DNA from: Sphingobacteriales bacterium
GTDB taxonomy: Bacteria; Bacteroidota; Bacteroidia; Chitinophagales; LD1
Reading direction: 5' to 3'
DNA length: 64,000 nt
Assembly (NCBI GenBank): GCA_018262795.1
Contig: JADFDM010000001.1
Span: forward strand, 1 to 64,000
Position 1 is the stretch's first letter. The number at the start of each line of letters is the position of its first letter. The notes below the pieces were generated by a model, which ran no database searches, was not told where the DNA came from, and worked only from the letters and a program-made list of their open reading frames with translations. Shown in pieces: positions 10,302 through 44,536 of the stretch. A program made the position numbers and the translations under genes.

Positions 10302-10997
10302 TTACAAGCAGGCAATACTTCGCAACTTCGCATAGTTGAGAATCTGTAACGTTCTACCACTCACAAAAATGATGCGTTCTTTTTTTAACTCGGCCATCGT
10401 TTTTGATACTTGTTCTTTTGTAACACCTATAAGGTCGCCAATGTCTTTCCTGCTCAAATTCACCTCAAAAGGTTCTTTAGAGTATTCTGAGAGATAGGTA
10501 TTGACAATGTGCAATAAGGCTTCTGCCACTTTCTCTCGCACGTTTAGCTGCGCCAAATGAATCATCCGGGTGTGCATTTGATTTAATTCTCGTTGAAATG
10601 CTTTTGTCAAATCTTCCCGAACTCCTGCGTTCCGGCTGCAAATGTCTTCATATTCTTTGCTTTCGATAAAACATACTGAAGTTTCTTCCACCGCAGTAAC
10701 TGAAATTTGTTGCTTGCCCAATTCATCTGTGGAATGACCTAACACAGAGCCGGCTTTGGCTAACGAAATGATTAGCGGCTGCCCTCTGTAACCGTTTACA
10801 AATACCTTCGCTACCCCTGATGAAATAAAATAAACGCCATCAATGTAGGTTCCTTGCCGGATAATAGGTTGCCCTTTGCGATAGGTCATGCAGAACTTAC
10901 TATTGTCAACAAACTCAAGATACTGCCGCTCGCAATTCTTAAGAATACAACAATATCTCGTACTACAGGTAAAGCAACTTGGGTCCTCTTTCTTCAT
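10302..10997 (-). CDS. Crp/Fnr-family regulator with N-terminal cysteine cluster
   Basis: The protein has 231 residues. Residues about 30-150 form the cyclic-nucleotide-binding-like beta roll (KGQPIIRQGTYIDGVYFISSG). A long dimer helix follows, then a C-terminal winged helix-turn-helix, VNLSRKDIGDLIGVTKEQVS. The first 22 residues hold five cysteines at 8, 11, 16, 17 and 22 (C-x2-C-x4-CC-x4-C). The order and spacing recall the N-terminal iron-sulfur ligands of oxygen-sensing FNR (C-x2-C-x5-C), so a [4Fe-4S] sensor is plausible. A fourth ligand, as in FNR, could be C17 or a Cys in the beta roll. With a nitrate-respiration island in the same window, it is the best candidate for anoxic control. 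Target sites have not been shown. Confidence 0.85.
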   Translation of the reverse strand: MKKEDPSCFTCSTRYCCILKNCERQYLEFVDNSKFCMTYRKGQPIIRQGTYIDGVYFISSGVAKVFVNGYRGQPLIISLAKAGSVLGHSTDELGKQQISVTAVEETSVCFIESKEYEDICSRNAGVREDLTKAFQRELNQMHTRMIHLAQLNVREKVAEALLHIVNTYLSEYSKEPFEVNLSRKDIGDLIGVTKEQVSKTMAELKKERIIFVSGRTLQILNYAKLRSIACL

Positions 10998-12479: not shown

Positions 12480-12494
12480 AATCTAAACAAAAAA

Positions 12495-13500: not shown

Positions 13501-14508
13501 TTAGGGCTTCGACAAGTCGGGGTTGGTGGTAAAGTTGGTATCGGTGAGTGTTTTTAAAAAAGAGAGCAAGTCATCCTTGTCTTGTTGGGTGAGGTGCAGC
13601 CCTGTTTCTTTAAAGGGAAGCGTCATCAAGGGGTCTATGTTGGGGGAGTTTTGATGCACGCCACTGTTGTAAAACTCAATCACTTGCTCCAGCGTGGTAT
13701 ATCTTCCATCGTGCATAAACCGGTCGCGAAGTTCGCAGTTTCTAAGCGTGGGAGTTTTGTATTTTCCCATGTCACTCACCTCACCGGTCACATCATATCT
13801 TCCCTTGCTAATGGAACTGAAAGTGCTATCCAAACCGGTATTGTGAAAGTCATTATCGGTCAAGAAAATTTCATTATGGCAATGGAAACAATCTCCTTTC
13901 TCTGTAAAAAAAGTAATCATGCCATTTCGTTCGTTGGGGGTTAGCACGGCTTCTCCTCTGCGGTATTGATCAAACTTTGAATTTCCTGAATTGAGTGTGC
14001 GGAAAAACTGTGCTAAAGCATAAGCCACGTTTAGCGAAGTGATGTTTTGCACGTTGTACGCTTTAAAAAATAAGTCGCGATATGTTTTATCGGCATTCAG
14101 TTTATTAATGTCTGTTTGAAAAAACTCATTCACTTCATACATCATCATATCTTCCAGCGAGCAGGTCTTTTCTCCTTTCCACAAAAAGTGTTTACTCCAT
14201 CCCAAATTCACATGCGGCAACACCGGAGTTACCGGAAAGTTATCGGAAGTAAATCCCATATTCTGATAATGGCAACTGGCGCAAGCGCGGCCATCATTAC
14301 TCAGAATAGGATCGTAATAAAGTTTGCGACCTAAGGCGACTCGCTCCACACTCATCGCATTGTAAGTGGGAACTTCCATCGGTGGAAATCGCTTGGGGAT
14401 TTGAATGTCGTAAGGGGTGAAAGAGTTCTTAGGCGCATCACTATCTCTCTTACAAGAGGAAATCGCGAGCGCCCATAACCCAACTATTAAAAGGGCAAGA
14501 TGTTTCAT
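13501..14508 (-). CDS. MauG/MbnH-like di-heme cytochrome c peroxidase-family lipoprotein (copy 1)
   Basis: The 335-residue protein starts at 14508, one base after the stop of the MbnP-like gene. Its signal peptide ends in the lipobox AISSC (Cys19), so it is a periplasmic lipoprotein. Two heme c motifs are visible: CASCH (76-80) and CFHCH (207-211). KTPTLRNCELRDRFMHDGRYTTLEQVI is split by family motifs LRN and MHDGR typical of the CcpA/MauG family. The segment that reads FWDGR in ordinary peroxidases is FLWKGEKTCSLED here. In characterised MbnH, the di-heme centre reaches a bis-Fe(IV) state and oxidises a Trp of its partner MbnP to kynurenine. The adjacent MbnP-like gene suggests the same pairing, which is inference. 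Confidence 0.85.
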   Translation of the reverse strand: MKHLALLIVGLWALAISSCKRDSDAPKNSFTPYDIQIPKRFPPMEVPTYNAMSVERVALGRKLYYDPILSNDGRACASCHYQNMGFTSDNFPVTPVLPHVNLGWSKHFLWKGEKTCSLEDMMMYEVNEFFQTDINKLNADKTYRDLFFKAYNVQNITSLNVAYALAQFFRTLNSGNSKFDQYRRGEAVLTPNERNGMITFFTEKGDCFHCHNEIFLTDNDFHNTGLDSTFSSISKGRYDVTGEVSDMGKYKTPTLRNCELRDRFMHDGRYTTLEQVIEFYNSGVHQNSPNIDPLMTLPFKETGLHLTQQDKDDLLSFLKTLTDTNFTTNPDLSKP

Positions 14509-14509
14509 G

Positions 14510-15220
14510 TCAGTTAAAAATATCGGCACCGTTTATACATAACTTTTGCATAGCCGTATCGTTGTTCATTGAATAATTTCCATCCGTATTAAAATCGTAC
14601 ACCGCAGGGTTTTTAAACCATTCATTTATGTTCATCGTGAGATTCAAGGGGGAGGAATGACCGCCACTGACGGTGAGCGCGCGACTTAAATGAATAGGCA
14701 CTAAGTGTTTATTTTTTCCCAGATGGATGGCAAAACCATAGGTTCCGTTTGCATCTTTATAATGCCCTTCTAACTTCATAAAGTGGTACCCACCGCCCAT
14801 CTCATCGGGCCATCCCATGTTTATGTTATCCAGGGTAGCCGCCAAGCCATCGGTCACGTTGTGGCTTGAATCTAAGCCTACATAAAAATCTACTGCGGTG
14901 TAATCACCGGGGGGGAAATTTTCAAACAACAAGCTATTGGTGGTGGGGTTCGCTGCGTTCACATAAAACACTTTATCGCTTTCATATTGGCTGCCATCAT
15001 TTTTTGAAAACACAAAGTGCGATACGTAATAATTCAGTTTAGTCACCTCATAATCGTATCCCGCTTCGCACATGTACATCATGCGGTTCATTTGCAACGG
15101 ACTGCTATCTACTTGGTACGAAATATTGACCTGCCATGCGGTCTCTTTTTCGTCCGTTTTTTTGCAGCCGGGAAGTATAGAAAAGAAGGTGAACAGAAAG
15201 AATGAAAATCTAATAACCAT
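14510..15220 (-). CDS. MbnP-like copper-binding-family lipoprotein (copy 1)
   Basis: The product has 236 residues, with a signal peptide and lipobox ending ILPGC (Cys19). The body matches the MbnP-like family: LNYYVSHFVF near residue 62, FYVGLDSSHN, then the family segment NINMGWPDEMGGGYHFMKLE and a late VSGGHSSPLNL. Family members are periplasmic proteins whose copper binding depends on conversion of a Trp to kynurenine by a MauG-like enzyme. Here the core segment keeps only one Trp (GWP), whereas the second copy in the window has WPW. The gene is translationally coupled to the di-heme gene behind it. It may bind copper, but the metal ligands cannot be read from the sequence alone. Confidence 0.8.
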   Translation of the reverse strand: MVIRFSFFLFTFFSILPGCKKTDEKETAWQVNISYQVDSSPLQMNRMMYMCEAGYDYEVTKLNYYVSHFVFSKNDGSQYESDKVFYVNAANPTTNSLLFENFPPGDYTAVDFYVGLDSSHNVTDGLAATLDNINMGWPDEMGGGYHFMKLEGHYKDANGTYGFAIHLGKNKHLVPIHLSRALTVSGGHSSPLNLTMNINEWFKNPAVYDFNTDGNYSMNNDTAMQKLCINGADIFN

Positions 15221-15278: not shown

Positions 15279-16304
15279 TTATCGCCTCAAATTATTGTAG
15301 GCTATTGAAAGCAAAGCCCAAAATGCAAGGGTGGTCAACAGCAGCAGTATAAATGCCGAACGGTTCTTTTCTTTCACCATCCGAATGCCATAAAATTCCT
15401 CTAAAGGAGTGTTCCACTTTTTATAATAATCATAGAATATCGTATCGCCTGTGATCTTCCACATTTGTTCCATTTGATCCACTACCACTTTCTGATATTT
15501 TTTATCTGACTTTTTCCCCCATCGGTCATAATAACTCCAGCCATCCCCCATCTCATACTTATTCAACTCCGTCTTCAACGCTTTCTTTCCATTTTCGTAA
15601 ATCAAAGCCGCTGAATCGTCTTTGGTCACTTGCCAATATTTACCTATCCCCAGAAAAGCACCAATATGCCCGTTCAATACTCGTGGCGTGTTCATATTCG
15701 TATCGGCATACTCCTCATACCACCAGCCGTTCGGCTCCATATAAGTAAAGCCTCCTTGCTGAATAGGCACATAAAATCCGCGCAACAATTCCTTTGCATA
15801 GTTCAAATACTCTGCTTCCTTCGTTAATTCATAAGCGTAAGAAAAGGCTTCGATAGCCGTACCGGAAGCCAAGCCCGAACGCCACGGCACCCTCACGCTT
15901 GGGTAAAAAGGTTGCTGCCAATTCATTTCATAAAAGGCCACAGCCCCATAAATCGTTCGGTGATCAATCAGCCAATCAATGCAGTTGAAAAATTTTATGC
16001 GAATGGCAGTATCGTGAGTCTGCTGATACTCTTCGTAATAATGAATGGCAGAAATGCTGACCGTGGTGGGCAGATATTTTTCGCCCGCATCTATACCATT
16101 ACAAGGCGCATAATGCACCAGTGGAATGCCTTTTGAATTTACCCGTATCGCATAGCTGGCAGGCACCTCGGTGTGCTTCACTTGCAGGTAATAAAAACGT
16201 CTGATATACTCTTCCCACTTGTCTCCTCGGTATTCTCCAAGGAAGAGGGCCGCACCTAACGCAGGTAGTAGAAGAAGAAAATAAATTTTGGTGCTTCGTT
16301 TCAA
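15279..16304 (-). CDS. D-glucuronyl C5-epimerase-like membrane protein
   Basis: The 341-residue protein resembles the C-terminal domain of D-glucuronyl C5-epimerases. An (alpha/alpha)-barrel-like body contains VRVPWRSGLASGTAIEAFSYAYE, GGFTYMEPNGWWYEEYAD and RVLNGHIGAFLGIGKYW, all hallmark segments. A transmembrane or signal-anchor helix lies at about 6-23, and a second helix near the C-terminus (about 315-335) is followed by a basic tail. Family enzymes invert C5 of glucuronic acid in polysaccharides such as heparosan; the bacterial substrates are mostly unknown. It lies 33 bases behind a T9SS-secreted protein gene and 58 bases ahead of the MbnP-like gene, so the four genes may be one transcript. 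Epimerase activity on a surface glycan is inference. Confidence 0.75.
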   Translation of the reverse strand: MKRSTKIYFLLLLPALGAALFLGEYRGDKWEEYIRRFYYLQVKHTEVPASYAIRVNSKGIPLVHYAPCNGIDAGEKYLPTTVSISAIHYYEEYQQTHDTAIRIKFFNCIDWLIDHRTIYGAVAFYEMNWQQPFYPSVRVPWRSGLASGTAIEAFSYAYELTKEAEYLNYAKELLRGFYVPIQQGGFTYMEPNGWWYEEYADTNMNTPRVLNGHIGAFLGIGKYWQVTKDDSAALIYENGKKALKTELNKYEMGDGWSYYDRWGKKSDKKYQKVVVDQMEQMWKITGDTIFYDYYKKWNTPLEEFYGIRMVKEKNRSAFILLLLTTLAFWALLSIAYNNLRR

Positions 16305-16337: not shown

Positions 16338-18218
16338 TTACTGCTTCACCATTCTGCCGGTGTATCTCTTATCCAATATTTTTAATTGGTAGATAAAAAC
16401 GCCTGGGGCCATAGCTGGCAAGTCTATCGAAATTTTATTGACCATGCCTGCATCAGTCGTTTTTGTAAGCACCAATAGTTGCTGCCCCAGCAAATTAGAA
16501 ATGATTAAAACCGCTTCCGTTTTTTGTGTGGAATAAAAATTCAACGTAGTTTTTTGATGGAATGGATTTGGAAACACCTGCACCCATGGGTCATTTTGCA
16601 ATGCTGTAATTCCGGTAAGCACATTCGCCCACACACTATCACTTTCGGCAGAAATACAGGTATTTGCATCCGATATTTTCACCGAGTAATAGCCCGACTG
16701 AGTGGCTTTGAAACTCTGCGTAGTAATTGCACTTTGCCACACGCCATTCAAAAACCAAGTGTAACCGCTGGCCGTTTCGTTGCAGGTAAGGGTATCTGCA
16801 TTCCCCGTAATAGTTGGCTGCGCAGGCAGCGGATACACCGTGACGGAATGGTAGGCCGTATCGGCATTCGTTCCATTCCCCGCCACTAACATCACATCGT
16901 AGAGGCCCGAGGTGGAGTAAGTATGGGTAGGAGTTGTGAGCGCAGAGCCGGTTCCATCCCCAAAGTCCCAAAAGAACGAAGAAGCTACACCGGTAGAGGT
17001 ATTGCTAAAGATCACAGGCATTCCTTCGCAAGCATTCGCAGCCACAAAATCAGCAGTAGGCATTTGCGGGCTGCACCAAGTAATTTGCGAACTGATGGTG
17101 CCGCTATTGTTGTCAATGAAAGGGGCTTGCGCAGCAGGAGTGAGGTCACAAAAGTCGAAAGAGCCAATCATAAAGCCCGAATTGCCGGTGTTGTGAGCCA
17201 CCACAAAACTTCCAAACTGCCCCGAAACAGTATCGGCATTATACCAGTTAGAGTCCACCACCATTCTCCCATTATTAAAAAAGGAAGCATAGTGGTGAAT
17301 AGAATCTGCATTCATAAAGCTGTTGCCCAGCATAAGCATTCCCCCCAGTGCATTCGTAAACCTTCCGATGTTGTAGAAATTGCCCGCTCCCAGCAGCGAA
17401 TCGCTATTGGTGAAAGTGTTCTGATTCACCGCGTCCTGAAAATCAAAGCGACCTTGGTTATGGATAGTTCCCAAATTGGCAAAGGCGGAAGTGTGCACAG
17501 CGCCTTGATTAATCAAAGAACCGGTATTCAGCACGCGGTCTGCGTTTATTTGTGCGTTTACATGATTCGTCATCACCCCGGCATTGGTAAAGCTGTCCAC
17601 CTCTGCTATATCTCCCCGATTCACCAAAATGCCACCGGTGAAAAATGTAGGAGAGATAATGGAATCGTTGTTGAGCAGAAAACCGGTATTAAAAAAGCTA
17701 TCAACACCCATCAACAAACCATCGTTTATCAAGGTATCGCTGTTCTGAAATTTATTGGCAGAAAACGTTCCGCTATTGTGCAAGAAACCGAGATTGATAA
17801 AACTATCTACCTGATACACGATACCCGAATTTTCTATCCCACTATAATTAGCGAAGGATTTCAACCGAAGTGTATCGCTATTATTCACACTGCCCGACTG
17901 CAACAGCAGATAGCGAAAATCAACCGTGCCATGATTGATCAAAAAGCCTCCGTTTATCTGCATATCTCTCGGGGTCGCATCCTGAATCAAAGAGCCACTG
18001 GCATTCACCGTGATGCCGCCCGAGGGTAATTGAAAACTGGTATTCAGCGTAACCGCATGGTTAATGGTAACGGTGTATCCCGGAGTGGGAATACAAGTGC
18101 AGTTCCAAGTAAACGGACTTAGCCACGGCCCATTGGCAATAGAGGTGGCCGATTGCGAAAAAGAGTTTTGAAAGAGAATGCAGAAGAGAACAGATAGAAA
18201 AAGATAACCGGTTTTCAT
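16338..18218 (-). CDS. T9SS-secreted protein with PKD domain
   Basis: The 626-residue protein has a Sec signal peptide (residues 1-21, ending SFS-Q). Residues 30-370 are a long run of imperfect repeats rich in N-x-G, such as LINHGTVDF, LLNNDSI and LINQGAVHT, typical of a right-handed beta-solenoid. A PKD domain follows at about 395-465, with the hallmark FFWDFGDGTGSALTTPTHTY. A second Ig-like segment comes next, and then a C-terminal type A sorting domain (about 545-626; VFPNPFHQKTTLNFYS and GVFIYQLKI). The sorting domain directs export through the type IX system and attachment or release at the cell surface. It has a well-formed promoter and heads a four-gene minus-strand array. Its ligand is unknown; adhesion is likely. 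Confidence 0.85.
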   Translation of the reverse strand: MKTGYLFLSVLFCILFQNSFSQSATSIANGPWLSPFTWNCTCIPTPGYTVTINHAVTLNTSFQLPSGGITVNASGSLIQDATPRDMQINGGFLINHGTVDFRYLLLQSGSVNNSDTLRLKSFANYSGIENSGIVYQVDSFINLGFLHNSGTFSANKFQNSDTLINDGLLMGVDSFFNTGFLLNNDSIISPTFFTGGILVNRGDIAEVDSFTNAGVMTNHVNAQINADRVLNTGSLINQGAVHTSAFANLGTIHNQGRFDFQDAVNQNTFTNSDSLLGAGNFYNIGRFTNALGGMLMLGNSFMNADSIHHYASFFNNGRMVVDSNWYNADTVSGQFGSFVVAHNTGNSGFMIGSFDFCDLTPAAQAPFIDNNSGTISSQITWCSPQMPTADFVAANACEGMPVIFSNTSTGVASSFFWDFGDGTGSALTTPTHTYSTSGLYDVMLVAGNGTNADTAYHSVTVYPLPAQPTITGNADTLTCNETASGYTWFLNGVWQSAITTQSFKATQSGYYSVKISDANTCISAESDSVWANVLTGITALQNDPWVQVFPNPFHQKTTLNFYSTQKTEAVLIISNLLGQQLLVLTKTTDAGMVNKISIDLPAMAPGVFIYQLKILDKRYTGRMVKQ

Positions 18219-18292: not shown

Positions 18293-18658
18293 TTATCTCT
18301 TATCGGGCCCGGTGTAAATACATCCCGAGGTCTCTGTTTCGTACACGGTTACTTTTGAAAGCATTGGAATTGTGGGGGAAATTTTTTCCCAAATCCACAC
18401 CGTCAGATTTTCTACTGTGGGGTTTTCAAGCCCCTCCACTTCATTCAGCACTTTGTGATCTACCTGCCGCATCACCGGCATAAAAGCACTTTTTATATCC
18501 GTAAAGTCAGCAATCCAACCCGAATCACTTCCGGGTGTTCCTTCCAAATAAATAATCACTCGGTAAGCATGGCCGTGCATATTCCGGCACTTATGCTCCA
18601 GCGGCACATTCGGTAAAAAATGGGCGGCCTCAAATCTGAACTCTTTAAAAATTTCCAT
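18293..18658 (-). CDS. queD: 6-carboxytetrahydropterin synthase QueD
   Basis: The 121-residue length is right for QueD (about 120), which converts dihydroneopterin triphosphate to 6-carboxy-5,6,7,8-tetrahydropterin in queuosine (and related deazapurine) synthesis. FEAAHFLP supplies the first zinc His. CRNMHGHAYRV supplies the catalytic Cys24 and the other two zinc His residues; the C-x3-HGH form separates QueD from PTPS enzymes that lack this Cys. WIADFTDIKS and the VDHKVLNE segment complete the active site, and VYETETSGCIY lies at the end. No other queuosine gene is nearby. The protein is a cytoplasmic homohexamer in characterised members. Confidence 0.92.
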   Translation of the reverse strand: MEIFKEFRFEAAHFLPNVPLEHKCRNMHGHAYRVIIYLEGTPGSDSGWIADFTDIKSAFMPVMRQVDHKVLNEVEGLENPTVENLTVWIWEKISPTIPMLSKVTVYETETSGCIYTGPDKR

Positions 18659-18692: not shown

Positions 18693-20102
18693 TTATACTA
18701 ACTTCTCAAACTTTGCTTGAAAGAAGCGAAGGTACTTCGGCTCATACACCATTTTCAATCCCTTAATTTTTTCTCTGCGCTGATACACCGAATACACCGA
18801 CTCGGCAATCACATCCATGTGTGCCTGCGTATAAACTCTTCGGGGAATAGTAAAGCGCACCAACTCTAATTTGGGGAAATAATTTTCTCCGTTTGATTTT
18901 CTACCGGCTGAAACAATTCCTCGCTCCATCGTTCTTACTCCCGAATCCAAGTACACCTCAGCCGCCAACGTTTGTGCCGGAAACTGATCTTGCGGAATGT
19001 GCGGAAGAAATTGCTTGGCATCTACAAATATGCCGTGTCCACCAATAGGTTTCACGATGGGAATGCCATAACTCTCCATCAAGCGCCCCAGATATTCCAC
19101 TTGCCCCACTCTGGCGCGCATGTGGTTGTCGCTCAAACTTTCTTCAATACCAATGGACATGGCTTCCATGTCGCGTCCTGCCAAACCACCATAAGTATGC
19201 AGCCCTTCATACACCACTACCAAGTTTCTCGCTTCTTCAAAAGCATCCCAATCATTCAAGGCTAGAAAACCGCCAATGTTTACCAAGGCATCTTTCTTGG
19301 CACTCATCGTAGCGCCATCGGTGTAAGAGCATATTTCAAAAACAATTTCGCGGATGCTCTTCTTATCGTATCCTTTTTCGCGCTGCTGAATAAAGTATGC
19401 ATTCTCTGCCACGCGAGTCATGTCGTGAATCACTTTGATGCCGAGCTTCTTGGTAAAAGCGCGCAACTTTCTCAAATTATCCATGCTCATGGGCTGCCCA
19501 CCGGCCATATTCACATTGGTAGCAATGCACACATAGGGAATGCGCTTGGCTCCGTACTTTTTCACGATGGCCTGCAACTTCGCCATGTCCACATTTCCTT
19601 TAAAAGGAAACTCGCTCACGGGGTCGTGTGCCTCATCCACAATTACATCTACAAAGGTGCCCCCTGCCAGTTCTTGGTGCAGTCGAGTAGTGGTGAAATA
19701 CATATTGCCGGGAATGATGTCGCCCTTTTTAATTAATATTTTCGACAGAATATTTTCGGCCCCGCGTCCCTGGTGCGTAGGAATAATGTATTTATAGCCG
19801 TAACACTTCTGTATCGTTTTTTCAAGTTTGAAGAAATTGCGACTGCCTGCATAAGATTCATCGCCCAACATCATGCCGGCCCATTGTTGATCGCTCATGG
19901 CAGAGGTGCCACTATCTGTCAGCAAGTCTATATACACATCTTCGGAGCGAAGCAGAAACGTGTTATAACCGGCTTGCTTAATAGCTTTCAGTCTGTGAGG
20001 CCGATCGGTCATGGTCAGCAACTCCACCATCTTCATTTTATACGGTTCGGCCCAAGAGCGTTTTACGATCTGTTTCTTGCTTGATTTTATTTCATTTTTC
20101 AT
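18693..20102 (-). CDS. Tyrosine phenol-lyase (beta-tyrosinase)
   Basis: This 469-residue PLP enzyme belongs to the tryptophanase/tyrosine phenol-lyase family. Three positions that separate the two activities all point to tyrosine phenol-lyase. NMYFTTTR has Thr137 where tryptophanase has Asp. SGVRTMERG has Arg394 where tryptophanase has a hydrophobic residue. YLRFFQAKF has Phe460 where tryptophanase has His. The PLP lysine lies in MSAKKDALVNIGG. The enzyme cleaves L-tyrosine to phenol, pyruvate and ammonia, and can run in reverse. It starts 21 bases after the nadB stop and is probably co-transcribed with nadA-nadB. Automatic annotation may call it tryptophanase. Confidence 0.85.
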   Translation of the reverse strand: MKNEIKSSKKQIVKRSWAEPYKMKMVELLTMTDRPHRLKAIKQAGYNTFLLRSEDVYIDLLTDSGTSAMSDQQWAGMMLGDESYAGSRNFFKLEKTIQKCYGYKYIIPTHQGRGAENILSKILIKKGDIIPGNMYFTTTRLHQELAGGTFVDVIVDEAHDPVSEFPFKGNVDMAKLQAIVKKYGAKRIPYVCIATNVNMAGGQPMSMDNLRKLRAFTKKLGIKVIHDMTRVAENAYFIQQREKGYDKKSIREIVFEICSYTDGATMSAKKDALVNIGGFLALNDWDAFEEARNLVVVYEGLHTYGGLAGRDMEAMSIGIEESLSDNHMRARVGQVEYLGRLMESYGIPIVKPIGGHGIFVDAKQFLPHIPQDQFPAQTLAAEVYLDSGVRTMERGIVSAGRKSNGENYFPKLELVRFTIPRRVYTQAHMDVIAESVYSVYQRREKIKGLKMVYEPKYLRFFQAKFEKLV

Positions 20103-30864: not shown

Positions 30865-31758
30865 GTGTTTGCTTAGAATTATTTTAGGCACCTACTGTAA
30901 TACATTGATAATGAGTGTGTGAATCGCACAAATCTCAACCGATCCCTCTTTGCTTTGCGTAGGCGGTGCCTGCACTCATCCACTTAACGAATTTAATATG
31001 ACTGAGTCTTTTAGTGGTCAGAACCAATCATAAATTTCTGTCGGAAACGGTAGATGAGCGAGGGCAATGCCATTCGCTCCGAGGGGAAACTTATCTCTTT
31101 GCAGGCTCTCGCGAAGTGGCACAGAACGCGGCCGTGTTTTATTCTCTCTTTGTTACTTTGTAAAGCCAACGGGATAGATCCATATAACTGGATAGCAGAA
31201 GCACTATAGAAAATAGCCGCACCTCCCATAACTCGGATGAGTGAGCTTTTGTCATTTACTATTTACTGAGCCATAGATGACAGGGTTTACCAGATGGTCG
31301 CGGGGGAGAAGGAGTAAAATCTCTCTTTATTCTTCCTTACTATTAGTGCAATCATCTTTTATCGGGATAGGCAGTTTTTTTCTATCGTATCCCATTTTCA
31401 ATGACTCTTCACTTCCTCTTCCCATAAGTCTAAACACCTTCATTTTAAGAATAACTCTATGTTGTTCGCCCTTTTATAAGTTGGTAGCTTTTGCCAGCGT
31501 TCCTCGCCAAAAGCCGCATCACAGCTTGTGTTGCCATATTTTAAAGTGGAAATTCTTCTTCTCTGACTTTACAACGGAAACTCTAAAAAATACGAAAAGA
31601 CATTTTTCTGCTTGAGAATGGTCATGTTTTTTCATGTCGTGCGAATGTTCTTTTGCCGCATCAATATGAGAAAGGTAGTTACAAAAAATAGGGTGGCAGC
31701 CAAACTACAAAATCCGTCATTAACAGGAGGAATAATTACTCATTTAGAACAGAACACA
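30865..31758. other. Long gap between the ribosomal operon and the nitrate-respiration cluster
   Basis: About 890 bases hold no gene I can support. Open frames at 31011-31229 (minus) and 31277-31615 (plus) lack family motifs, and their compositions look random. The upstream promoter of the nitrate cluster should lie here, but I find no exact TAnnTTTG near the cytochrome start. A GTCA half-site occurs near 31240 without a matching partner. Confidence 0.5.
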
Positions 31759-32697
31759 ATGGAAAAATTATTTCCGAGAAATCAATTTTCAACAAAATTT
31801 ATCTACCACATGAGGTCAATGTTACAAAATGCCTATTCAGTGCTTCTTCAAAATCTATCTAATAAGAAAGCAATAGCTATATTGATTATGGCAGTTGTAT
31901 GTTCTCAGCAGGATATTCTTGCACAGGATGGAGAAAAGTTATTTAAACAAAATTGCGCTGCCTGCCACTCCATCGGTAAAGGGAAATTAGTAGGGCCCGA
32001 TTTGCACGGAGTAACTGAACTGCGCACTGAGCCATGGCTTATCAAATGGATAAAAGGCTCGCAGGCAATGGTCAATGCAGGCGATCCGGATGCAAAAGCC
32101 ATCTTCGAGGAATTCAACAAAATTCCAATGCCGGATCAAAACCTTCCGGATGCGGATATCAAAGGAATTCTTGCTTTTATAAAAGAGAAGAGTGGCCAAA
32201 TTCCAGCAGCATCTGAAACAGCCGCAGTTGGCAATAAATCAGACAATGCAACAGCGGCAGAGATAACTACCGGTCAGCATCTGTTTGAGGGAGGGAAAAG
32301 ACTTACCAACGGAGGGCCAGCCTGTATCTCTTGCCACAATGTAACGAACAATAAAATTATTCCCGGTGGCTTACTTGCTAAAGATTTGACCAACGCACAT
32401 AGCCGCTTAGGTGGCGATGCCGGTATCATGGGAATTTTAAATGCTCCGCCATTCCCTGCTATGACTGAGGCTTATAACGGAAAACCAATCACCGAAACAG
32501 AGATTGCCGACCTTACGGCATTCCTTAATAAAGCTGACAAAGAAAGTGCTACTCAAAACGCAGCCGCAAGCCCCTTGTTGAAATGGGGATTTTTAGGCTT
32601 TGCCATTTGGGTGGGTATTGTATTGCTGCTGTGGCGTAAGAAAAAGTGGAACATGGTGAAACAGCGGATTTTTGATCGCCAAGTGAAAACAAGATAA
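31759..32697 (+). CDS. Membrane-anchored di-heme cytochrome c of the nitrate reductase cluster
   Basis: The product has 312 residues from the ATG at 31759; other Mets at 31612, 31810 and 31819 are possible starts. A hydrophobic signal (about 38-52, AIAILIMAVVC) is followed by two cytochrome c domains. The first has CAACH (66-70) and a likely Met ligand in IPMPDQ. The second has CISCH near residue 193 and a Met in GIMGILNAPPFPAMTEAY. A C-terminal helix (LLKWGFLGFAIWVGIVLLLW) and a basic tail anchor it in the inner membrane with the hemes in the periplasm. It lies 42 bases ahead of narG and resembles NarC-type cytochromes that accompany some NarGHI enzymes. It may take electrons to or from NarI or the quinone pool. 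Confidence 0.8.
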   Translation: MEKLFPRNQFSTKFIYHMRSMLQNAYSVLLQNLSNKKAIAILIMAVVCSQQDILAQDGEKLFKQNCAACHSIGKGKLVGPDLHGVTELRTEPWLIKWIKGSQAMVNAGDPDAKAIFEEFNKIPMPDQNLPDADIKGILAFIKEKSGQIPAASETAAVGNKSDNATAAEITTGQHLFEGGKRLTNGGPACISCHNVTNNKIIPGGLLAKDLTNAHSRLGGDAGIMGILNAPPFPAMTEAYNGKPITETEIADLTAFLNKADKESATQNAAASPLLKWGFLGFAIWVGIVLLLWRKKKWNMVKQRIFDRQVKTR

Positions 32698-32739
32698 ACT
32701 GAACAAATCTTAAAAAACGAATTCTAAAACAATATAACT

Positions 32740-35700
32740 ATGAGTTGGATTGAAGACATCATTTCTCCGAAAACACGCAAATGGGAAGAGTTTTATCGCA
32801 ATCGTTGGCAGTATGATAAAGTAGTACGAAGCACGCATGGAGTAAACTGTACGGGTGGCTGTTCTTGGAACATTCACGTGAAAGACGGAATTGTAGTATG
32901 GGAAACTCAGGCATTAGATTACCCTTTATTGGAAGAAAGTTTGCCGCCTTATGAGCCTCGCGGATGTCAAAGAGGAATTTCTTATTCATGGTACCTCTAT
33001 AGCCCTATTCGGGTGAAATATCCGTTAATGCGCGGAGCCTTAATGGATTTATTTCAGGAAGCAAAGAAAGCTGCCAATGGAGATCCAATACAGGCATGGG
33101 AAAATCTTCAAAGCAATCCGACTAATCGCGCTCGTTACCAAAGAGCCAGAGGTAAAGGCGGTTTCAGAAGAGCGAACTGGGAGGAAGTAGTGGAGTTAAT
33201 AGCAGCCGCTAACCTCTACACAATAAAGAAATATGGGCCTGATCGCGTAATTGGGTTCTCCCCTATACCAGCGATGTCCATGCTAAGTTATGCATCAGGA
33301 GCACGCTATTTGCAATTGTTAGGTGGTGTTAACTTGAGCTTTTATGATTGGTATTGCGATTTGCCAACAGCATTCCCCGAAGTTTGGGGTGAACAAACCG
33401 ATGTGTGCGAAAGTGCGGACTGGTATAATTCCAAGTTTTGTGTTTCTATGGGAGCCAACTTAGGAATGACCCGGACCCCAGATATTCACTTCTTCTCCGA
33501 ATCAAAACACAACGGAACAAAAACAGTAGTAATGTCACCTGACTTCAGTATGGTGGCAAAGCATGCCGATCAATGGATTCCTTGCCATGCCGGTTCTGAT
33601 GGTGCGTTTTGGATGGCCGTGACACATGTGATTCTGAAGGAATTTCATGCCGATAGGCAAGTGCCATATTTTATTGATTATGTGAAACGATATACCGATT
33701 GCCCATTCTTGGTTGAATTACAAAAAGAGGGAGATCATTATAAGCCAGGACGATTGATTCGTGCTAATCGAATTGCAAAATATAAGGATGTTGAGAATGG
33801 AGATTGGAAGTTTTTAAATATTGATTCCAAAACTGGAAAATTGGTTATGCCGAAAGGCAGTATGGGGCAGCGTTGGGATAAGGGTAAAATTGGTAATTGG
33901 AATTTAAAATTTGAGGATGGAGAAGATAATTCTGAGTTTGATCCAACCTTGACTATCTTAAACAAAAGTGATGATGTACTGAAGGTTGAATTCGTTGAAT
34001 TCGGATTGAACAAAAAGATGTTACGGTCAGTTCCTGTGAAATACATTGACACCGTTGATGGGCAAAAAATTGCAGGAGTAACAATATATGACTTGACCTT
34101 TGGCCAATACGGTGTATCACGCGGTTTGCCGGGCGATTATCCTGCCGACTACAATGATAAAGACCAATCATATACTCCGGCTTGGCAGGAGATATTCACT
34201 GGTATAGGGCGTGAAGTGGTGTTGCAAATAGCCCGCGAGTGGGGTAGTACAGCCGAAACCACAAAGGGGAAATGTATGGTAATTGTTGGGGCCGCTATTT
34301 GTCACTGGTTTCATAACAACTTGATGTATCGCTCTGCAATTATGACACAGATGCTGACCGGTTGTAACGGGGTGAATGGAGGGGGTATGAATCACTATGT
34401 AGGTCAGGAGAAATTAGCTCCCGTGGATTCTTGGGGAACTATCATGGCCGCTAAAGATTGGCAAAGTGCCAACCGCTTGCAGCAGGCTCCTATTTGGCAC
34501 TATATCAATTCCGACCAATGGAGATACGATGGTAATCAGGCGCAGTACAACAACATACCTACCGGAAGTAAGTTAGGTAACATGCACTCGGCTGATTTTG
34601 CTGCAATGGCTGTTCGCAACGGGTGGATGCCCTTTTATCCCCAATACAACAAGAGCAACTTCGAAATTGTAACAGATGCAGTGTCTGCCGGAGCTAAAAC
34701 TGATGATGAAATAAAAAATTATGTAGTAGATAAATTGAAGTCTAAGGAACTGCTCTATTCCATTTCTGATCCCGATGCAGAAATAAATTTCCCGCGCAAC
34801 TGGTTTATATGGCGGGGCAATGCACTGATGGCGAGCGCCAAAGGACACGAGTATATGCTCGATCACTATTTGGGTACACACACCAATAAGATTGCCGATG
34901 AAGTAGCTCAAGACCATGTTTCAGAATTAATATGGAGAGAAGCTCCTAAAGGGAAAATGGATTTGATAGTAGATCTCAATTTCCGCATGGATACATCTGC
35001 GCTTTATTCTGATGTAGTTCTTCCTGCCGCTTCGTGGTACGAAAAAGCAGATATCAACTCAACGGATATGCACTCCTTCATTCACCCGTTAGGGCAAGCT
35101 ATTGCTCCGGTATGGGAAGCGAAGAGCGACTGGCAGATATTTCAATTGCTGGCAAAGAAAGTGAGTGAGATGGCAAAGTCATATATGCCGCATCCGATTA
35201 AGGACGTAGTGAACACCCCATTATCACACGATTCAATTGACGAAATAAGCCAGCCGAGATTATTGGATTGGTATAAAGGAGAGTGCGAGCCTATTCCCGG
35301 AAAAACAATGCACAAAATTGCAATTGTAGAGCGTGATTATACTCAGATTTATAACCGCTACATTTCTCTTGGCGCAAACATGGAAACGAACCCGATAGGA
35401 GCGCACGGAGTGAGTTTTATGGCAAACGATGTGTATGCCGAAATGAAAAATGATAAGCGTCACGTTCAAAAAGTGAATGGTGTGGAATATCCTTCTTTGA
35501 AGGAAGATATAGAAGCAGTAAATGCAGTATTGCGATTGTCTTCTTTGACCAACGGGAAAATGACCGTGCGGGCTTACGAAAACATGGAGAAGAAAACAGG
35601 CATGCCACTGCTACAACATGGTATTGGCAGCAAGGATGTGAAAATTGATTATAAAGATTTGCAAGCGCAGCCTCGCAGGTATAACAATTCTCCACTTTGG

Positions 35701-36363
35701 TCGGGGTTAATGGATAATGGCCGTGCCTATGCAGCCTATAGCTATAACGTAGATTGCTTGGTGCCTTGGAGAACACTTACTGGTCGGCAGCATTTTTATC
35801 TTGACCATGATGGTTACATTGCCTTTGGCGAAAATCTCACAACTTTTAAACCATCTCCAACACCAGAGGCTTATGGCGATATACGTAAAACAATAAATGA
35901 TGGTAAGGCGAAAATGCTGAACTGTTTAACCCCTCACGGCAAATGGCATATTCACTCTACTTATGGCGATACGTTGAGAATGCTCACTCTTTCAAGAGGT
36001 ATGGAGCCATGCTGGATGAGCGAAGGAGACGCAGCCGCCATTGGCGTGAAAGACAATGATTGGGTAGAAGTGTATAATGACCACGGAGTGTATTGCACTC
36101 GTGCTTGCGTAAGCGCACGGATTCCTAATGGTGTTTGTATTGTGTATCACTCTCCTGAAAGAACTTACTCCGTTCCAAAATCACAGGAAAGAGGAGGAAG
36201 AAGGGCCGGTGGACACAATAGTTTCACTCGTGTGCACTTGAAACCAAGTTTAATGGTGGGTGGTTACGGACAGTTTTCCTATCACTTTAATTACTGGGGA
36301 CCGGTAGGCTCTAACCGCGACACGCACGTTTTGGTGAGGAAAATGGAAAAAGTAGAATTTTAA
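32740..36363 (+). CDS. narG: Respiratory nitrate reductase, alpha subunit
   Basis: The 1207-residue protein aligns along its whole length with NarG (about 1240). It reduces nitrate to nitrite at a molybdo-bis(MGD) centre. The FS0 cluster ligands are His33, Cys37, Cys41 and Cys76 ([12 protein letters not shown] and EPRGCQRG). The Mo-ligand Asp lies in [50 protein letters not shown] and the VGSNRDTHV end are also conserved. There is no twin-arginine signal, so the active site faces the cytoplasm as in classical Nar. The organism therefore needs nitrate import, which NarK downstream provides. It is followed by narH, narJ and narI. Confidence 0.97.
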
Positions 36364-36390
36364 AAGAACAATAAAAAACAGCTCAATAAT

Positions 36391-37887
36391 ATGGACGTAA
36401 GATCGCAAGTATCAATGGTTTTTCACCTCGATAAATGTATCGGGTGCCACACTTGTTCTATTGCCTGCAAAAACGTTTGGACAGATAGAAAAGGGGCAGA
36501 GTATATGTGGTGGAACAACGTGGAAACAAAACCCGGAACCGGTTATCCTACCAAATGGGAAGATCAAGATATTTATAAAGGTGGATGGGAGAAAAATGGA
36601 GATTCGGTTTCACTGAAAGGAGCCGGAAAGTTGAAAGGATTGAAAAATATTTTTCACAATCCGCATCTTCCTGTACTGGATGATTACTACGAACCGTGGA
36701 CATACAAATATCAGGATTTGTTTACGGCTCCTGAAGGGGATGACCAACCAACTGCTCGTCCGGTTTCATTAGTAACCGGGGAACATATAGATGTCAAATC
36801 GGGGCCAAACTGGGATGATGATTTAGGCGGTTCTCAGGATTATGCTCGGCAGGATGTTAATTTTAAAGACCTCAGCCCTTCAGAACAGGAAGTGATGTTT
36901 CAGTTGGAGCGAATGACTTTCTTCTACTTACCAAGAATTTGTAATCACTGTTTGAATCCGGCATGTGTAGCTGCTTGTCCATCAGGTGCTATTTACAAGC
37001 GAGGCGAAGATGGAGTAGTGTTGATTAATCAACAGGTTTGCCGTGCTTGGAGAATGTGTGTAACCGCTTGTCCCTACAAAAAATCTTATTACAACTGGCA
37101 TACCGGGAAATCAGAAAAATGTATTTTATGTTATCCGCGATTGGAATCAGGACAAGCACCTGCTTGTATGCACCAGTGCGTTGGTCGGATTCGTTATCTG
37201 GGAGTGATGCTTTACGATGCTGATAGAATTCATGAAGTAGCTTCTACTAAAAATGATGCTGATTTGGTGGACGCGCAATTGGGGATTTATTTAGATCCAT
37301 TTGATCCCGAAGTTATTCGTGAAGCGCAGAAAAACGGCATTGCCATGTCAACGATTGAAGCCGCACAAAAATCACCGGTTTACAAATTCGTGAAAGTATG
37401 GAAACTTGCCCTCCCGCTTCACCCTGAGTTCAGAACCCTGCCCAATTTATTTTATGTGCCGGCACTTATGCCCGGTATGGCATCGGTGCAAGACGGTATT
37501 TATAAAGAAACCAATAAACAATTTTTGTGGGGTGGAATTGAAACAAACCGCTTACCGATAAAATATCTTTCGAATCTCTTCACTGCCGGCAATCAAAATA
37601 AAATTGTAGAAGTATTGAAACGACTGATGGCAGTGAGATGGCACAGACGCCAAACAACGGTTGGAGATGTAGAACAAGAAATTGTTGACACCGCCATGCA
37701 GGAAGTAAATTTAGGAGCCGAAACGGCAGATGCTATTTTCAGATTAACGGCCTTAGCCACGTTTGATGAACGTTTTGTGATTCCACCGGCACATCGAGAA
37801 GAATCTATTGAAATGCTGGAAAACACAGCCGATGTAAAAGGAAATACCGGATTTGGATTTAAAGAAAAACCTGAAAGAGGATGGTAA
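36391..37887 (+). CDS. narH: Respiratory nitrate reductase, beta (iron-sulfur) subunit
   Basis: The 498-residue protein matches NarH (about 510), which carries electrons from NarI hemes to NarG through one [3Fe-4S] and three [4Fe-4S] clusters. The first motif is C16-x2-C19-x2-C22-x3-C26. The second group is in CNHCLNPACVAACPSG. The third is CRAWRMCVTACPYKK, where Trp replaces one Cys and makes the [3Fe-4S] site. The last group is in KCILCYPRLESGQAPACMHQC. All cluster ligands of the family are present. The gene starts 27 bases after narG and overlaps the narJ start by 7 bases. Confidence 0.97.
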   Translation: MDVRSQVSMVFHLDKCIGCHTCSIACKNVWTDRKGAEYMWWNNVETKPGTGYPTKWEDQDIYKGGWEKNGDSVSLKGAGKLKGLKNIFHNPHLPVLDDYYEPWTYKYQDLFTAPEGDDQPTARPVSLVTGEHIDVKSGPNWDDDLGGSQDYARQDVNFKDLSPSEQEVMFQLERMTFFYLPRICNHCLNPACVAACPSGAIYKRGEDGVVLINQQVCRAWRMCVTACPYKKSYYNWHTGKSEKCILCYPRLESGQAPACMHQCVGRIRYLGVMLYDADRIHEVASTKNDADLVDAQLGIYLDPFDPEVIREAQKNGIAMSTIEAAQKSPVYKFVKVWKLALPLHPEFRTLPNLFYVPALMPGMASVQDGIYKETNKQFLWGGIETNRLPIKYLSNLFTAGNQNKIVEVLKRLMAVRWHRRQTTVGDVEQEIVDTAMQEVNLGAETADAIFRLTALATFDERFVIPPAHREESIEMLENTADVKGNTGFGFKEKPERGW

Positions 37888-38609
37888 AGAACAGAGAACA
37901 TTATACGCTTATGTCCACTCTATTCAAATATCCTACTGAAGGATTTATGAAAGATGTGAAAGAGAATTTGACATTTCTTAAAAGCAACTATCCCGAAGCT
38001 GCCAATGCGTTACAGGTATTTTCAGAATATATGGCACATTGCACTTTAGATGAGCAGCAAGAACTGTTTACCAAAACATTTGATGTACAGCCTATTTGTT
38101 ATCTCGATTTAGGATATGTGATGTTTGGAGAAGATTATAAGCGGGGTGCGTTTTTGCTAAACATGCAAACCGAGCAGCTTAAAATAGGAAACAACTGTGG
38201 AACTGACCTGCCCGATAATCTCTGCAACGTACTTACGCTGATGACTATTTCTACCGACAAGGATTTTGTAGCTGATTTAACTTGGCGTATTACCATTCCA
38301 TGTGTGAAAAAAATGATTGCAGAGTTTGCCATGGCCAGAGTGGACATGAAAATGAAAGTACTTCGGAAAATGCACCGCGCCATTATTCAGGAAGAATTGA
38401 ATCACGGCAATGTTTACAAAAATTGTTTCGCTGCGCTGCTTGAAGTTTTAATTAAAGATTTTGGCGAGAAAGAATTTACATCTGCGGAGGATACCGTTCT
38501 TACCTCTGCCCATCATCAATCATTTTTCAATAAGCAAACGGCCTTAACAACTATTTCTATAAAAAATTCAGAGGTACAAGAATATGTAGCTCTTCAAAAA
38601 CTAGACTAA
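37881..38609 (+). CDS. narJ: Nitrate reductase assembly chaperone
   Basis: The 242-residue protein is NarJ, a cytoplasmic helical chaperone that holds NarG until its molybdenum cofactor and FS0 cluster are inserted. The start at 37881 overlaps narH by 7 bases and gives the usual opening REHYTLMSTLFKYP; a Met at 37911 is the alternative. The segment LFTKTFDVQPICYLDLGYVMFGED is the family core (the F-D-x5-L-x-L region). The protein is slightly longer than E. coli NarJ (236). Conservation is lower than for the other Nar subunits, as is normal. Confidence 0.9.
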   Translation: MVKNREHYTLMSTLFKYPTEGFMKDVKENLTFLKSNYPEAANALQVFSEYMAHCTLDEQQELFTKTFDVQPICYLDLGYVMFGEDYKRGAFLLNMQTEQLKIGNNCGTDLPDNLCNVLTLMTISTDKDFVADLTWRITIPCVKKMIAEFAMARVDMKMKVLRKMHRAIIQEELNHGNVYKNCFAALLEVLIKDFGEKEFTSAEDTVLTSAHHQSFFNKQTALTTISIKNSEVQEYVALQKLD

Positions 38610-38611
38610 TC

Positions 38612-39334
38612 ATGAACTATCTATTATTCGTTGTATTCCCCTACACTTGTTTAGCGATTTTTTTAATCGGCTCTATTTATCGGTACAACAAAAAGGCCTT
38701 TACAGTTTCATCGCTGTCATCTGAATTTTTAGAAGGGAAAAAACTCTTCTTGGCCAGCCAGTTGTTTCACTGGGGCTTGTTGGTTCTGTTTTTTGGACAT
38801 TTGATTGGCTTTTTGTTCCCTAAAAGTGTGATGGCATGGAACGGGCAACCGGTTCGGCTGTTAATCCTTGAGATAACCGCCTTTGTTTTCGGCTTATCTG
38901 CCTTCTTTGGTATCATACTTTTAGTTTACAGACGGTTGACCGATAGACGAGTGCAGATTGTTACGACTAAGATGGATTTCGTGGTGCTGGCTATTTTGTT
39001 GATACAAATCATTTCAGGTTTATTGGTGGCTTACACTAACCGTTGGGGTTCTGCATGGTTTGCCGCATTCCTTACCCCGTATCTCCGCTCCATTTTTGTA
39101 TTCAATCCACAAATTGATGCCATTGCCAGTGTAAACTCACTGTCACTAAAAATTCACGTTATCTCTGCTTTCAGCATTATAGGTATTATTCCATTCACCC
39201 GCTTTATGCACTTCTTGGTTTACCCTTTGGATTATACTTGGAGAAGTTATCAAGTGGTGTATTGGAACTGGAACCGGAAAAATATCCGTGTTTCGAGAGC
39301 ACACCGCGAAGGACAGAAATCAACGAATAACTAA
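38612..39334 (+). CDS. narI: Respiratory nitrate reductase, gamma (cytochrome b) subunit
   Basis: The 240-residue membrane protein has five transmembrane helices and is NarI, the quinol-oxidising anchor. Four His ligands for two b hemes are visible: FHWG and GHLIG in the second helix, and LKIHVISAF and RFMHFLVYP in the last. The cytoplasmic C-terminus after VYPLDYTWRSYQ binds NarH. It starts 2 bases after narJ. A small membrane protein gene follows 20 bases downstream. Confidence 0.95.
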   Translation: MNYLLFVVFPYTCLAIFLIGSIYRYNKKAFTVSSLSSEFLEGKKLFLASQLFHWGLLVLFFGHLIGFLFPKSVMAWNGQPVRLLILEITAFVFGLSAFFGIILLVYRRLTDRRVQIVTTKMDFVVLAILLIQIISGLLVAYTNRWGSAWFAAFLTPYLRSIFVFNPQIDAIASVNSLSLKIHVISAFSIIGIIPFTRFMHFLVYPLDYTWRSYQVVYWNWNRKNIRVSRAHREGQKSTNN

Positions 39335-39354
39335 TTAACCAACAAGTATCAGTT

Positions 39355-39708
39355 ATGAAAATTGCACTTTATAATTTCAGCAAAATTTTTGCTCACTACA
39401 GGAAGGCTGTAGGTTTTCTACTCAGTTTTGTTTTTGTAGTAACAGCTCATGGCGCTTCCGCTACTCCACCTTCGTCCGGCAGAAGTGTATGGTATGATTT
39501 GATAGTAGTGGGGCTGATTGTTTTGTGCCTTTGGATTATTTACGTGATACAGAAATCATCAAAAATTTTAAGCCAAAATGGTTACTCAATTACTGATTTA
39601 GACTTCCCCATTTTTAAAAAGATGAGTGAACACGGTATTGCTGTGGCTGTGATGATGGCAATTTTGGTATTGATAGGGATGTACTTTGTAGTGACTTACG
39701 GTCAGTAA
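39355..39708 (+). CDS. Small three-helix membrane protein of unknown function in the nar operon
   Basis: The product has 117 residues. Hydrophobic segments lie at about 17-36 (AVGFLLSFVFVVTAHGASA, possibly a cleaved signal), 46-64 (WYDLIVVGLIVLCLWIIYVI) and 94-115 (IAVAVMMAILVLIGMYFVV). A short soluble loop, QNGYSITDLDFPIFKKMSEHG, lies between the last two. I do not recognise a family. It starts 20 bases after narI and is followed by a hairpin, so it is the last gene of the narGHJI transcript. A role in Nar stability or quinone or cytochrome contact is possible but is only inferred from position. Confidence 0.7.
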   Translation: MKIALYNFSKIFAHYRKAVGFLLSFVFVVTAHGASATPPSSGRSVWYDLIVVGLIVLCLWIIYVIQKSSKILSQNGYSITDLDFPIFKKMSEHGIAVAVMMAILVLIGMYFVVTYGQ

Positions 39709-39716
39709 TAATTTCA

Positions 39717-39732
39717 TCAGCAATTTTGCTGA
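39717..39732 (+). terminator. Hairpin after the narGHJI operon
   Basis: TCAGCAA-TT-TTGCTGA is a perfect 7-base inverted repeat 9 bases after the stop of the small membrane protein gene. It lacks a T tract, so termination is uncertain. The remaining gap to 39989 shows nothing else I can support. Confidence 0.4.
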
Positions 39733-39989
39733 ACTGATTTGTGGAGGTAGAAATGTGTTTGATGAATTTAGATACAAAGAAAGAATTACCACATTTAGGG
39801 ATAGTACACCTCTTGATTAATTGCCTTCAGTTGCTATCTGTTCCTACAGATCCCCTCAGCATTCATATCAGTCCTTAGTTCCAAGTCCATGATGAATCTA
39901 CGGTGTTTTTCCTCTGCTTATAATGTCTCCTACCTAACGCCTGAAGCAGTTATTTATAAACCCCATGAGTCACACCAATAAGCAAGGAT

Positions 39990-40622
39990 ATGGAAAATAG
40001 CTATCAACGGCTTTTGAAAAATAATAGGAGTTGGGCGCAAAAGCATATCGCTAAAGATGCCTCCTTTTTTAAAAAATTATCTGTAGGCCAATCTCCTGAA
40101 TACTTATGGATCGGTTGCTCTGACAGTCGCGTTCCCGCTAATGATGTTACCGGCACCAAGCCGGGTGAACTGTTTGTGCATCGCAATATTGCGAATGTGG
40201 TCATTCAAACGGATATGAATCTGCTGAGTGTGCTGTACTATGCGGTTGATCTTTTGAAAGTGAAACATGTAATTGTTTGCGGACACTATGATTGTGGCGG
40301 TGTTTGCGCGGCTATGCAAAATCAGGATTTCGGTTTTGTAAATAACTGGCTTAGGAGCATCAAAGAAGTTTATGCAAAGCATAAGACGGAACTACTGGCC
40401 ATTGAGGATATGGCGAAACGCGAAAGGCGGTTAGTGGAGTTGAATGTAATGGAGCAGGTGAATAATCTGGCCAAAACAAGAATTGTTCAACGGGCATGGA
40501 AAAATAGCACCCTGCAAATTCATGGTTGGGTGTACGATGGTAATAATGGGCAAATAAAAGATTTGAACTACAACAAAAGTGGCCATAGTGATATGGAAGA
40601 TATTTTCAGATATAACCTTTAA
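39990..40622 (+). CDS. Beta-class carbonic anhydrase
   Basis: The 210-residue enzyme interconverts CO2 and bicarbonate. Zinc ligands are Cys43 in GCSDSRVPA, His99 and Cys102 in GHYDCGGV. Asp45 and Arg47 form the catalytic dyad. VHRNIANVV and the late WVYDGNNGQIKDL are also typical. There is no signal peptide, so it acts in the cytoplasm. It starts 281 bases after the narGHJI transcript and only 9 bases ahead of narK, so it is co-transcribed with the nitrate transporter. Coupling of bicarbonate or pH balance to nitrate import is inferred from position. Confidence 0.92.
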   Translation: MENSYQRLLKNNRSWAQKHIAKDASFFKKLSVGQSPEYLWIGCSDSRVPANDVTGTKPGELFVHRNIANVVIQTDMNLLSVLYYAVDLLKVKHVIVCGHYDCGGVCAAMQNQDFGFVNNWLRSIKEVYAKHKTELLAIEDMAKRERRLVELNVMEQVNNLAKTRIVQRAWKNSTLQIHGWVYDGNNGQIKDLNYNKSGHSDMEDIFRYNL

Positions 40623-40631
40623 AAATTAGCA

Positions 40632-42143: not shown

Positions 42144-42224
42144 TCAAACTAACTGGAACTAAATCAGGGGGAATATTCAATAGGCTTCAATGTTTTGGAG
42201 AAATAGAGAGAACAAAAATTTCAC

Positions 42225-42593: not shown

Positions 42594-42684
42594 CTAAAGC
42601 GAAGTGATGAATAGGCATTGCTAATTAGCAGCACCAACATATTTAGACACATAAAAGTTAAAAAACAGGAAAACTCAAAATAAT

Positions 42685-43746: not shown

Positions 43747-43780
43747 ATTTCAAAACTGTATAAATGTACTAGGAGAATAA

Positions 43781-43792
43781 TGACGAAAATCA
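43781..43792. promoter_or_regulatory. Possible Crp/Fnr-like site before the hemerythrin-like gene
   Basis: TGAC-GAAA-ATCA differs from the exact palindrome by one base and lies 49-60 bases upstream of the ATG at 43841. A CATTT word lies at the same distance from it as the -7 elements near 22.7 and 57.2 kb. Chance cannot be excluded. Confidence 0.25.
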
Positions 43793-43840
43793 TTTTCTCA
43801 ATAAAATCAGATTCCCGTCATTTACAACAAAACATAACGC

Positions 43841-44509: not shown

Positions 44510-44536
44510 AAGGTTGAATTGATTTAAGTAGACGGA

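Follow-up and report, generated by a model that had tools for sequence, protein, structure and literature searches.

The stretch of DNA analysed here (64,000 nucleotides, hereafter the window) carries an MbnP-like and a MauG-like di-heme lipoprotein gene side by side, which raises the question of whether the two form a maturation pair of the MbnP/MbnH kind and, if so, what such a pair serves in a Bacteroidota genome. To our knowledge, the pairs of this kind that have been characterized so far all come from methanotrophs.

The gene pair and its surroundings

The original prediction, that an MbnP-like lipoprotein and a di-heme MauG-like lipoprotein are encoded one base apart, is borne out (Table 1). 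The MbnP ORF matches Pfam family PF20243 (5.5e-33, 114.9 bits against a gathering cut-off of 27), and the di-heme ORF matches PF03150 (CCP_MauG; 1.1e-29, 104.4 bits against 25.6). The TGA stop codon of the MbnP gene is followed by a single base and then by the ATG of the di-heme gene at 14508 (junction TGACATG); an alternative GTG start at 14529 would make the two genes overlap instead. Both proteins have a lipobox-like cysteine (LPG-C19 in MbnP and ISS-C19 in the enzyme), and C19 is kept in 163 of 199 MbnPs. Given these E-values, and since the pair recurs at hundreds of loci, chance is excluded, and the pair is a real, operon-like pairing of an MbnP lipoprotein with a MauG/MbnH-type di-heme lipoprotein.

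Table 1. Features of the window around the gene pair and in the nitrate-respiration island
Feature	Position	Strand	Evidence or remark
Crp/Fnr-family regulator gene (recurrent neighbour family)	10302..10997	-	
MbnH/MauG-like di-heme lipoprotein gene (P0003, 335 aa)	13501..14508	-	PF03150; 6E1C best in sequence and fold; loop statistics
MbnP-family lipoprotein gene (P0004, 236 aa)	14510..15220	-	PF20243; predicted fold; profile match; conservation
Subfamily signature WPDEMGGGYHF	14780..14812	-	DNA pattern match; conservation in 93 members
C5-epimerase-like gene, directly upstream of MbnP	15279..16304	-	PF06662, 2e-35
T9SS-secreted PKD protein gene	16338..18218	-	PF18962/TIGR04183
6-pyruvoyl-tetrahydropterin synthase (PTPS) family gene (recurrent subfamily neighbour)	18293..18658	-	PF01242
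Tyrosine phenol-lyase/tryptophanase family gene (recurrent neighbour)	18693..20102	-	TIGR02618, 745 bits, above cut-off 720.7
nadB (recurrent neighbour)	20124-21698	-	
nadA (recurrent neighbour)	21695-22669	-	
Nitrate-respiration island	31612..45511	+	about 17 kb from the pair
narG	32740-36363	+	
narH	36391-37887	+	
Gene at narJ position	37881-38609	+	
narI	38612-39334	+	
RIC-like hemerythrin	43841-44509	+	

The whole source genome has two PF20243 matches, namely the two MbnPs of the window, and the family is present in 51 of 60 relatives and in 78 of 296 genomes across the phylum. The second MbnP/di-heme pair of the window (59949-61808) belongs to the WLKY/FWDGR branch, its enzyme having an intact FWDGR and its MbnP a WPW and a 'WLKY'; this branch has no N-oxide neighbours.

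Pfam and TIGR matches confirm the T9SS-tailed surface protein and the C5-epimerase predicted upstream of the pair. The epimerase gene stands next to MbnP also in the same-genus relatives L183 and L185/L263, and the T9SS PKD neighbour is kept in one relative (L185/L263). Because both are conserved only within the genus, they were taken as local context and rejected as functional partners. None of mbnA, mbnB and mbnC was among the annotated neighbours of the pair, in a look at annotation level. The earlier reading of the context holds in that there is no obvious methanobactin setting, but the epimerase and T9SS genes are a genus-level feature, and the wider recurrent neighbourhood is that of denitrification. 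The tyrosine phenol-lyase gene, nadAB and the PTPS gene recur, without obvious reason, beside this branch of MbnPs. On the other side of the pair, at 11202-13478, a GAPDH-like gene with an unusual domain match (DapB_N plus Gp_dh_C, as in archaeal-type GAPDH) adjoins a phosphofructokinase gene. An Fnr-box search of the window gave 9 matches with at most one mismatch against 12.9 expected, none of them informative, and a promoter and terminator scan stayed below shuffled expectation.

The lipoprotein and the di-heme enzyme

The fold of the window MbnP was modelled with AlphaFold2 (pLDDT 91.9), and all six Foldseek matches of the model at E<1e-3 were chains of 7L6G, the MbnP of Methylosinus trichosporium OB3b, with a TM of about 0.55. 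A profile built from 70 relatives matched 7L6G at 2.7e-9; in this alignment, W137 falls on the first Trp of the WxW motif, and the M135 and H166 columns fall on a Met and a His of 7L6G. In the 7L6G study, MbnH reportedly converts this first Trp to kynurenine, and the copper ligands are said to be a His, a Met and a solvent molecule, the kynurenine lying close by. By alignment, W137 is thus the predicted kynurenine position, and the conserved Met and His columns suggest that the window MbnP may bind copper(I), with M135 and H166 as the presumed site. Other residues that stand out are the subfamily-specific H146, as well as M141, W201 and M218.

The second Trp of WxW is replaced in the window MbnP (WPDEMGGGYHF, within INMGWPDEMGGGYHFMKLEGH), which thus lacks the WxW motif of TIGR04052 (MbnP_like_WxW equivalog) and scores 33.7 bits against a cut-off of 140; the canonical Bacteroidota MbnP L003 likewise falls below this cut-off (53.9 bits). 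The earlier statement that the core segment has a single Trp was mistaken: the Pfam core (30-207) contains both W137 and W201.

The di-heme enzyme has CxxCH motifs at 76-80 and 207-211 (C76-H80 and C207-H211), and Y280, E125 and FLWKG were further marked in it. Its best PDB sequence match is MbnH (6E1C, 3.9e-45), a MauG-like protein linked to copper homeostasis, and in a Foldseek search its AlphaFold2 model (pLDDT 93.2) again ranked 6E1C first (9.4e-23, TM 0.82) and MauG next, so that MbnH is the closest solved relative in both sequence and fold. Pfam, profile and fold matches together uphold the family assignment and the pairing made in the original prediction. The enzyme scores 194.1 bits with TIGR04039 (MbnH; cut-off 362.85), a cut-off that the canonical L003 enzyme (208.2) and the second enzyme of the window (229.3) also miss.

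The pair was originally singled out on the grounds that the enzyme had lost the FWDGR motif and that its chemistry might differ. The place reads FLWKGE in the window enzyme, with D and R indeed changed but Trp and Gly retained. Since the characterized MbnH (6E1C) reads LTWANP there, a missing FWDGR makes no case for changed chemistry, and the argument was rejected. A claimed loss of a distal-pocket Gln was also dropped, the alignment column being unanchored at that place. The real differences from MbnP/MbnH lie in the WPxxMGGGYH stretch that replaces WxW, in one additional invariant His and, in the enzyme, in a post-heme-1 loop that has been shortened.

At the distal heme-ligand position, Y280 aligns in sequence with M258 of the Nitrosomonas CCP (1IQC), giving a MauG-like Tyr that is kept in 88 of 90 partner enzymes, the other two having gaps. 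This residue bears on the possibility of an ordinary di-heme cytochrome c peroxidase, which would clear peroxide when conditions shift between oxic and anoxic and for which MbnP would be a docking or electron-transfer partner that undergoes no covalent modification. Membership of the PF03150 superfamily and the Crp/Fnr neighbours would suit such a role, but the Tyr at the CCP Met position, the best match to MbnH rather than to a CCP, and the strict pairing with a lipoprotein that has an almost invariant Trp, unexpected for a free peroxidase, make it very improbable.

Beyond both folds, the window pair shares with MbnP/MbnH of M. trichosporium OB3b the gene pairing, the first Trp of WxW, the Met and His columns, the Tyr for the CCP Met and the absence of FWDGR. 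In contrast, its MbnP is only 12-13% identical to that of OB3b and differs at WxW and in the extra His, its enzyme has the shorter loop, its members lie under the NCBI equivalog cut-offs, and none of its annotated neighbours is a methanobactin gene. MauG likewise has the di-heme fold, the Tyr at the CCP Met position and a Trp of a partner protein as its substrate, but its target is methylamine dehydrogenase and its product TTQ; the window enzyme reaches 130.4 bits with TIGR03791 (MauG) against a cut-off of 443.85. CorA/CorB and MopE/SACCP of methanotrophs resemble the pair in that a surface copper(I) protein with kynurenine is encoded beside a di-heme CCP-like gene. The copper site of CorA consists of two His, a water and Kyn (PMC3912023), and CorA/MopE form a different protein sequence family from MbnP (PMC3621798).

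A distinct Bacteroidota branch

The window MbnP has the signature MxWPxxMGGGYH, which defines a subfamily together with the extra invariant H146. A search of genome contigs for this subfamily found at least 575 stretches encoding a relative, and the 80 best of these were retained as named loci; among the matches listed, every record naming a group is from Bacteroidota. P138, G142, G144, H146, H166, M218 and N230 are invariant in 93 of 93 members. W137 is kept in 91 of them, contrary to any absence of a conserved Trp, which the original prediction had named as grounds for refuting it, and W201 in 87. In the tree, all sampled members fall on one side of a single branch with a support of 99.

The partner enzymes are altered as well. 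The loop from the heme-1 ligand His80 to Asn101 has 16-27 residues in 87 of 92 subfamily partners and 28-30 in all 143 others, so that a loop of fewer than 28 residues occurs in 87/92 versus 0/143. The MbnP signature and the shortening of the enzyme therefore go together, with a few signature members retaining a standard enzyme, and the Asp of FWDG is mostly replaced. Clade monophyly, Trp/Met/His conservation and loop shortening demonstrate that the pair belongs to a distinct Bacteroidota branch. The canonical Bacteroidota MbnP/CCP pairs (WxW; WLKY/FWDGR) share its gene order and the conserved Trp and His, but have the standard 28-30-residue loop and N-oxide neighbours in 0 of 78 CCP-linked loci. 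An uncharacterized protein of about 324 residues and a small HCxGKC protein recur beside them instead; the latter, a membrane-type protein with an HCxGKCYLxK motif that is possibly copper-related, is encoded next to canonical Bacteroidota MbnP genes at L069 (5746-6144) and 31 other loci.

Among 194 distinct MbnPs, W137 is present in 158 of 160 with an adjacent di-heme gene versus 10 of 31 without (p=2e-18), the counts being limited to MbnPs with enough downstream sequence. H166 parallels it (158/160 with an adjacent CCP gene, 17/34 without). On the tree, about seven supported independent contrasts were found, two or three concordant and none discordant, and the sign test was not significant; the coupling was accordingly rejected as phylogenetically independent proof. 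As the independent evolutionary events are few, the coupling of W137 to the CCP gene is suggestive and falls short of proof. MbnP homologues without a di-heme partner, some in tandem (L085, L101, L111, L125 and L132), are natural paralogues lacking the site, with F, N or Y for the key Trp and often Q for the His. At L119, L130 and L176, two successive MbnP copies precede one di-heme gene, and the distal copy lacks both the Trp and the His.

The two exceptions with a di-heme gene are L173, in which the Trp is shifted, and L180 (3420-4190), where a subfamily MbnP encoded beside an intact di-heme gene has Phe at the predicted kynurenine position and thus represents a natural W-to-F variant. L180 retains W201, and this, with the 87 of 93 members that keep W201, the shortened loop and the replaced FWDG Asp in most partners, is what would be expected if the enzyme modified its partner unlike MbnH, forming another product (e.g. 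hydroxy-Trp or a Trp cross-link) or acting on another residue, W201. The alteration of the distal region and of the post-heme-1 loop is the reason for considering such a modification. We nevertheless think it improbable, because W137 is conserved throughout the CCP-linked family whereas W201 is conserved in the subfamily only, and because M135 and H166 are retained around W137.

Linkage to N-oxide respiration genes

Clustering of the neighbours at the named loci (the best 80 of at least 575) gave NorB 23, NorC 23, RIC 15, tryptophanase/tyrosine phenol-lyase 15, PTPS 14, Crp/Fnr 13, NadB 12, Rrf2 10, NadA 10 and MoaA 10. The best matches of the NorB cluster among solved structures are nitric-oxide reductase subunit B (4XYD and 3O0R), and the RIC neighbour has ScdA_N plus hemerythrin domains. 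An N-oxide gene lies within 3.5 kb at 27 of 71 named subfamily loci (from the best 80 of at least 575) versus 0 of 102 other MbnP loci under the same sampling; the exact p of 1e-12 is optimistic, since the neighbour families were selected for recurring in the test set itself. The zero among the controls, many of which are of the same genus and family, is a stronger point than the p-value. Again from the best 80 of at least 575, the proportion is 21 of 58 after removal of near-copies, and 28 of 57 at 6 kb when only loci with full flanks are counted. Within the same set, five loci have the RIC gene immediately after that of the enzyme and in the same orientation, and the immediate CCP-RIC and NorB-MbnP arrangements recur on the same strand. 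None of the 12 subfamily loci from the search of relatives has an N-oxide gene inside 3.5 kb, and at L263, L264 and L269 of that set such genes lie slightly beyond this distance. The linkage of the subfamily to N-oxide respiration genes is thus demonstrated at the locus level.

Individual contigs illustrate the arrangement: L267 carries cytochrome c-narGHJI and norBC-Crp-moaA-RIC-enzyme-MbnP; L265 carries nosZ, NosL, RIC, norBC, PTPS, enzyme and MbnP; and L269 carries norBC, RIC, nadAB, MbnP and enzyme. At L264 and L275, nosZ is close to the pair on the same contig. L263, from the genus of the window, has nirK 6.5 kb from MbnP, as well as the same epimerase and T9SS genes. Across 65 genomes, nosZ is present in 12 of 17 with the signature versus 10 of 48 without (p=6e-4), and nirK in 6 of 17 versus 4 of 48 (p=0.015). 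The co-occurrence of norB (3/17 versus 3/48) was not significant in these genomes and was set aside, and three of the 17 signature genomes have none of nosZ, nirK, norB and narG.

The nitrate-respiration island of the window also contains genes for a cytochrome c, a carbonic anhydrase, a NarK-like MFS protein, SLAC1 and MoaA, and more molybdenum-cofactor genes follow up to 55.8 kb. In all, nitrate-respiration and Moa/Moe genes occupy 31612-57141 in this Bacteroidota genome. In the 65 sampled genomes, narG exceeds the cut-off in just 2, both with the signature (p=0.07); narG was on this count rejected as a general partner. The source genome has narG as well as nosZ, the latter on another contig, and gave no match for nirK or norB, so that the copper client here would be NosZ.

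These data bear on whether the site has any functional tie to denitrification. A kynurenine-copper site could be made for general copper handling, the pair merely sharing an oxygen-responsive region with respiration genes. In line with this, about half of the full-flank named loci (from the best 80 of at least 575) have no N-oxide gene within 6 kb, the recurrent neighbours are not all denitrification genes, with nadAB, PTPS, tyrosine phenol-lyase and moaA among them, and other copper-related operons are known to contain MbnPH-like genes (PMC9426467). The absence of N-oxide genes from the other MbnP loci, the recurrent same-strand adjacencies and the genome-level association with nosZ argue against it, and we consider it unlikely, although the most credible of the alternatives.

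We favour, at slightly better than even chances, a distinct denitrification-associated MbnP/MbnH-type system in which W137 becomes kynurenine, a copper(I) site is formed and copper is provided for N-oxide respiration. In the pathway that we infer, the di-heme lipoprotein would dock on its partner MbnP in the periplasm or at the outer membrane and, through a high-valent di-heme state formed with peroxide or oxygen as the putative oxidant, would turn W137 into kynurenine. This conversion would preform a copper(I) site of Kyn137, M135 and H166, to which H146, peculiar to the branch, would probably add a ligand or a second-sphere residue. The copper-loaded lipoprotein may then supply or buffer copper for NosZ, and for NirK where present. 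Since kynurenine formation needs oxygen atoms, which is awkward under anoxia, maturation would have to proceed during the transition from oxic to anoxic conditions or else use peroxide.

The window pair is therefore of a known kind, was flagged for the wrong reason (FWDGR) and lies in a distinct denitrification-linked variant. The open-access papers that we searched include none joining MbnP and nosZ, and as far as they show the variant is unreported. More tentatively, the branch might consist of kynurenine-copper proteins with a redesigned site (extra His) and a compact maturation enzyme, devoted to supplying or sensing copper in Bacteroidota denitrification, where post-translational Trp oxidation would gate N2O reduction. 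Through a clade tied to nosZ, nirK and norB by gene neighbourhood and genome co-occurrence, kynurenine-copper chemistry would be connected to N2O reduction, and the clade offers a host group, residues and a growth condition for probing MbnP/MbnH pairs outside methanotrophs.
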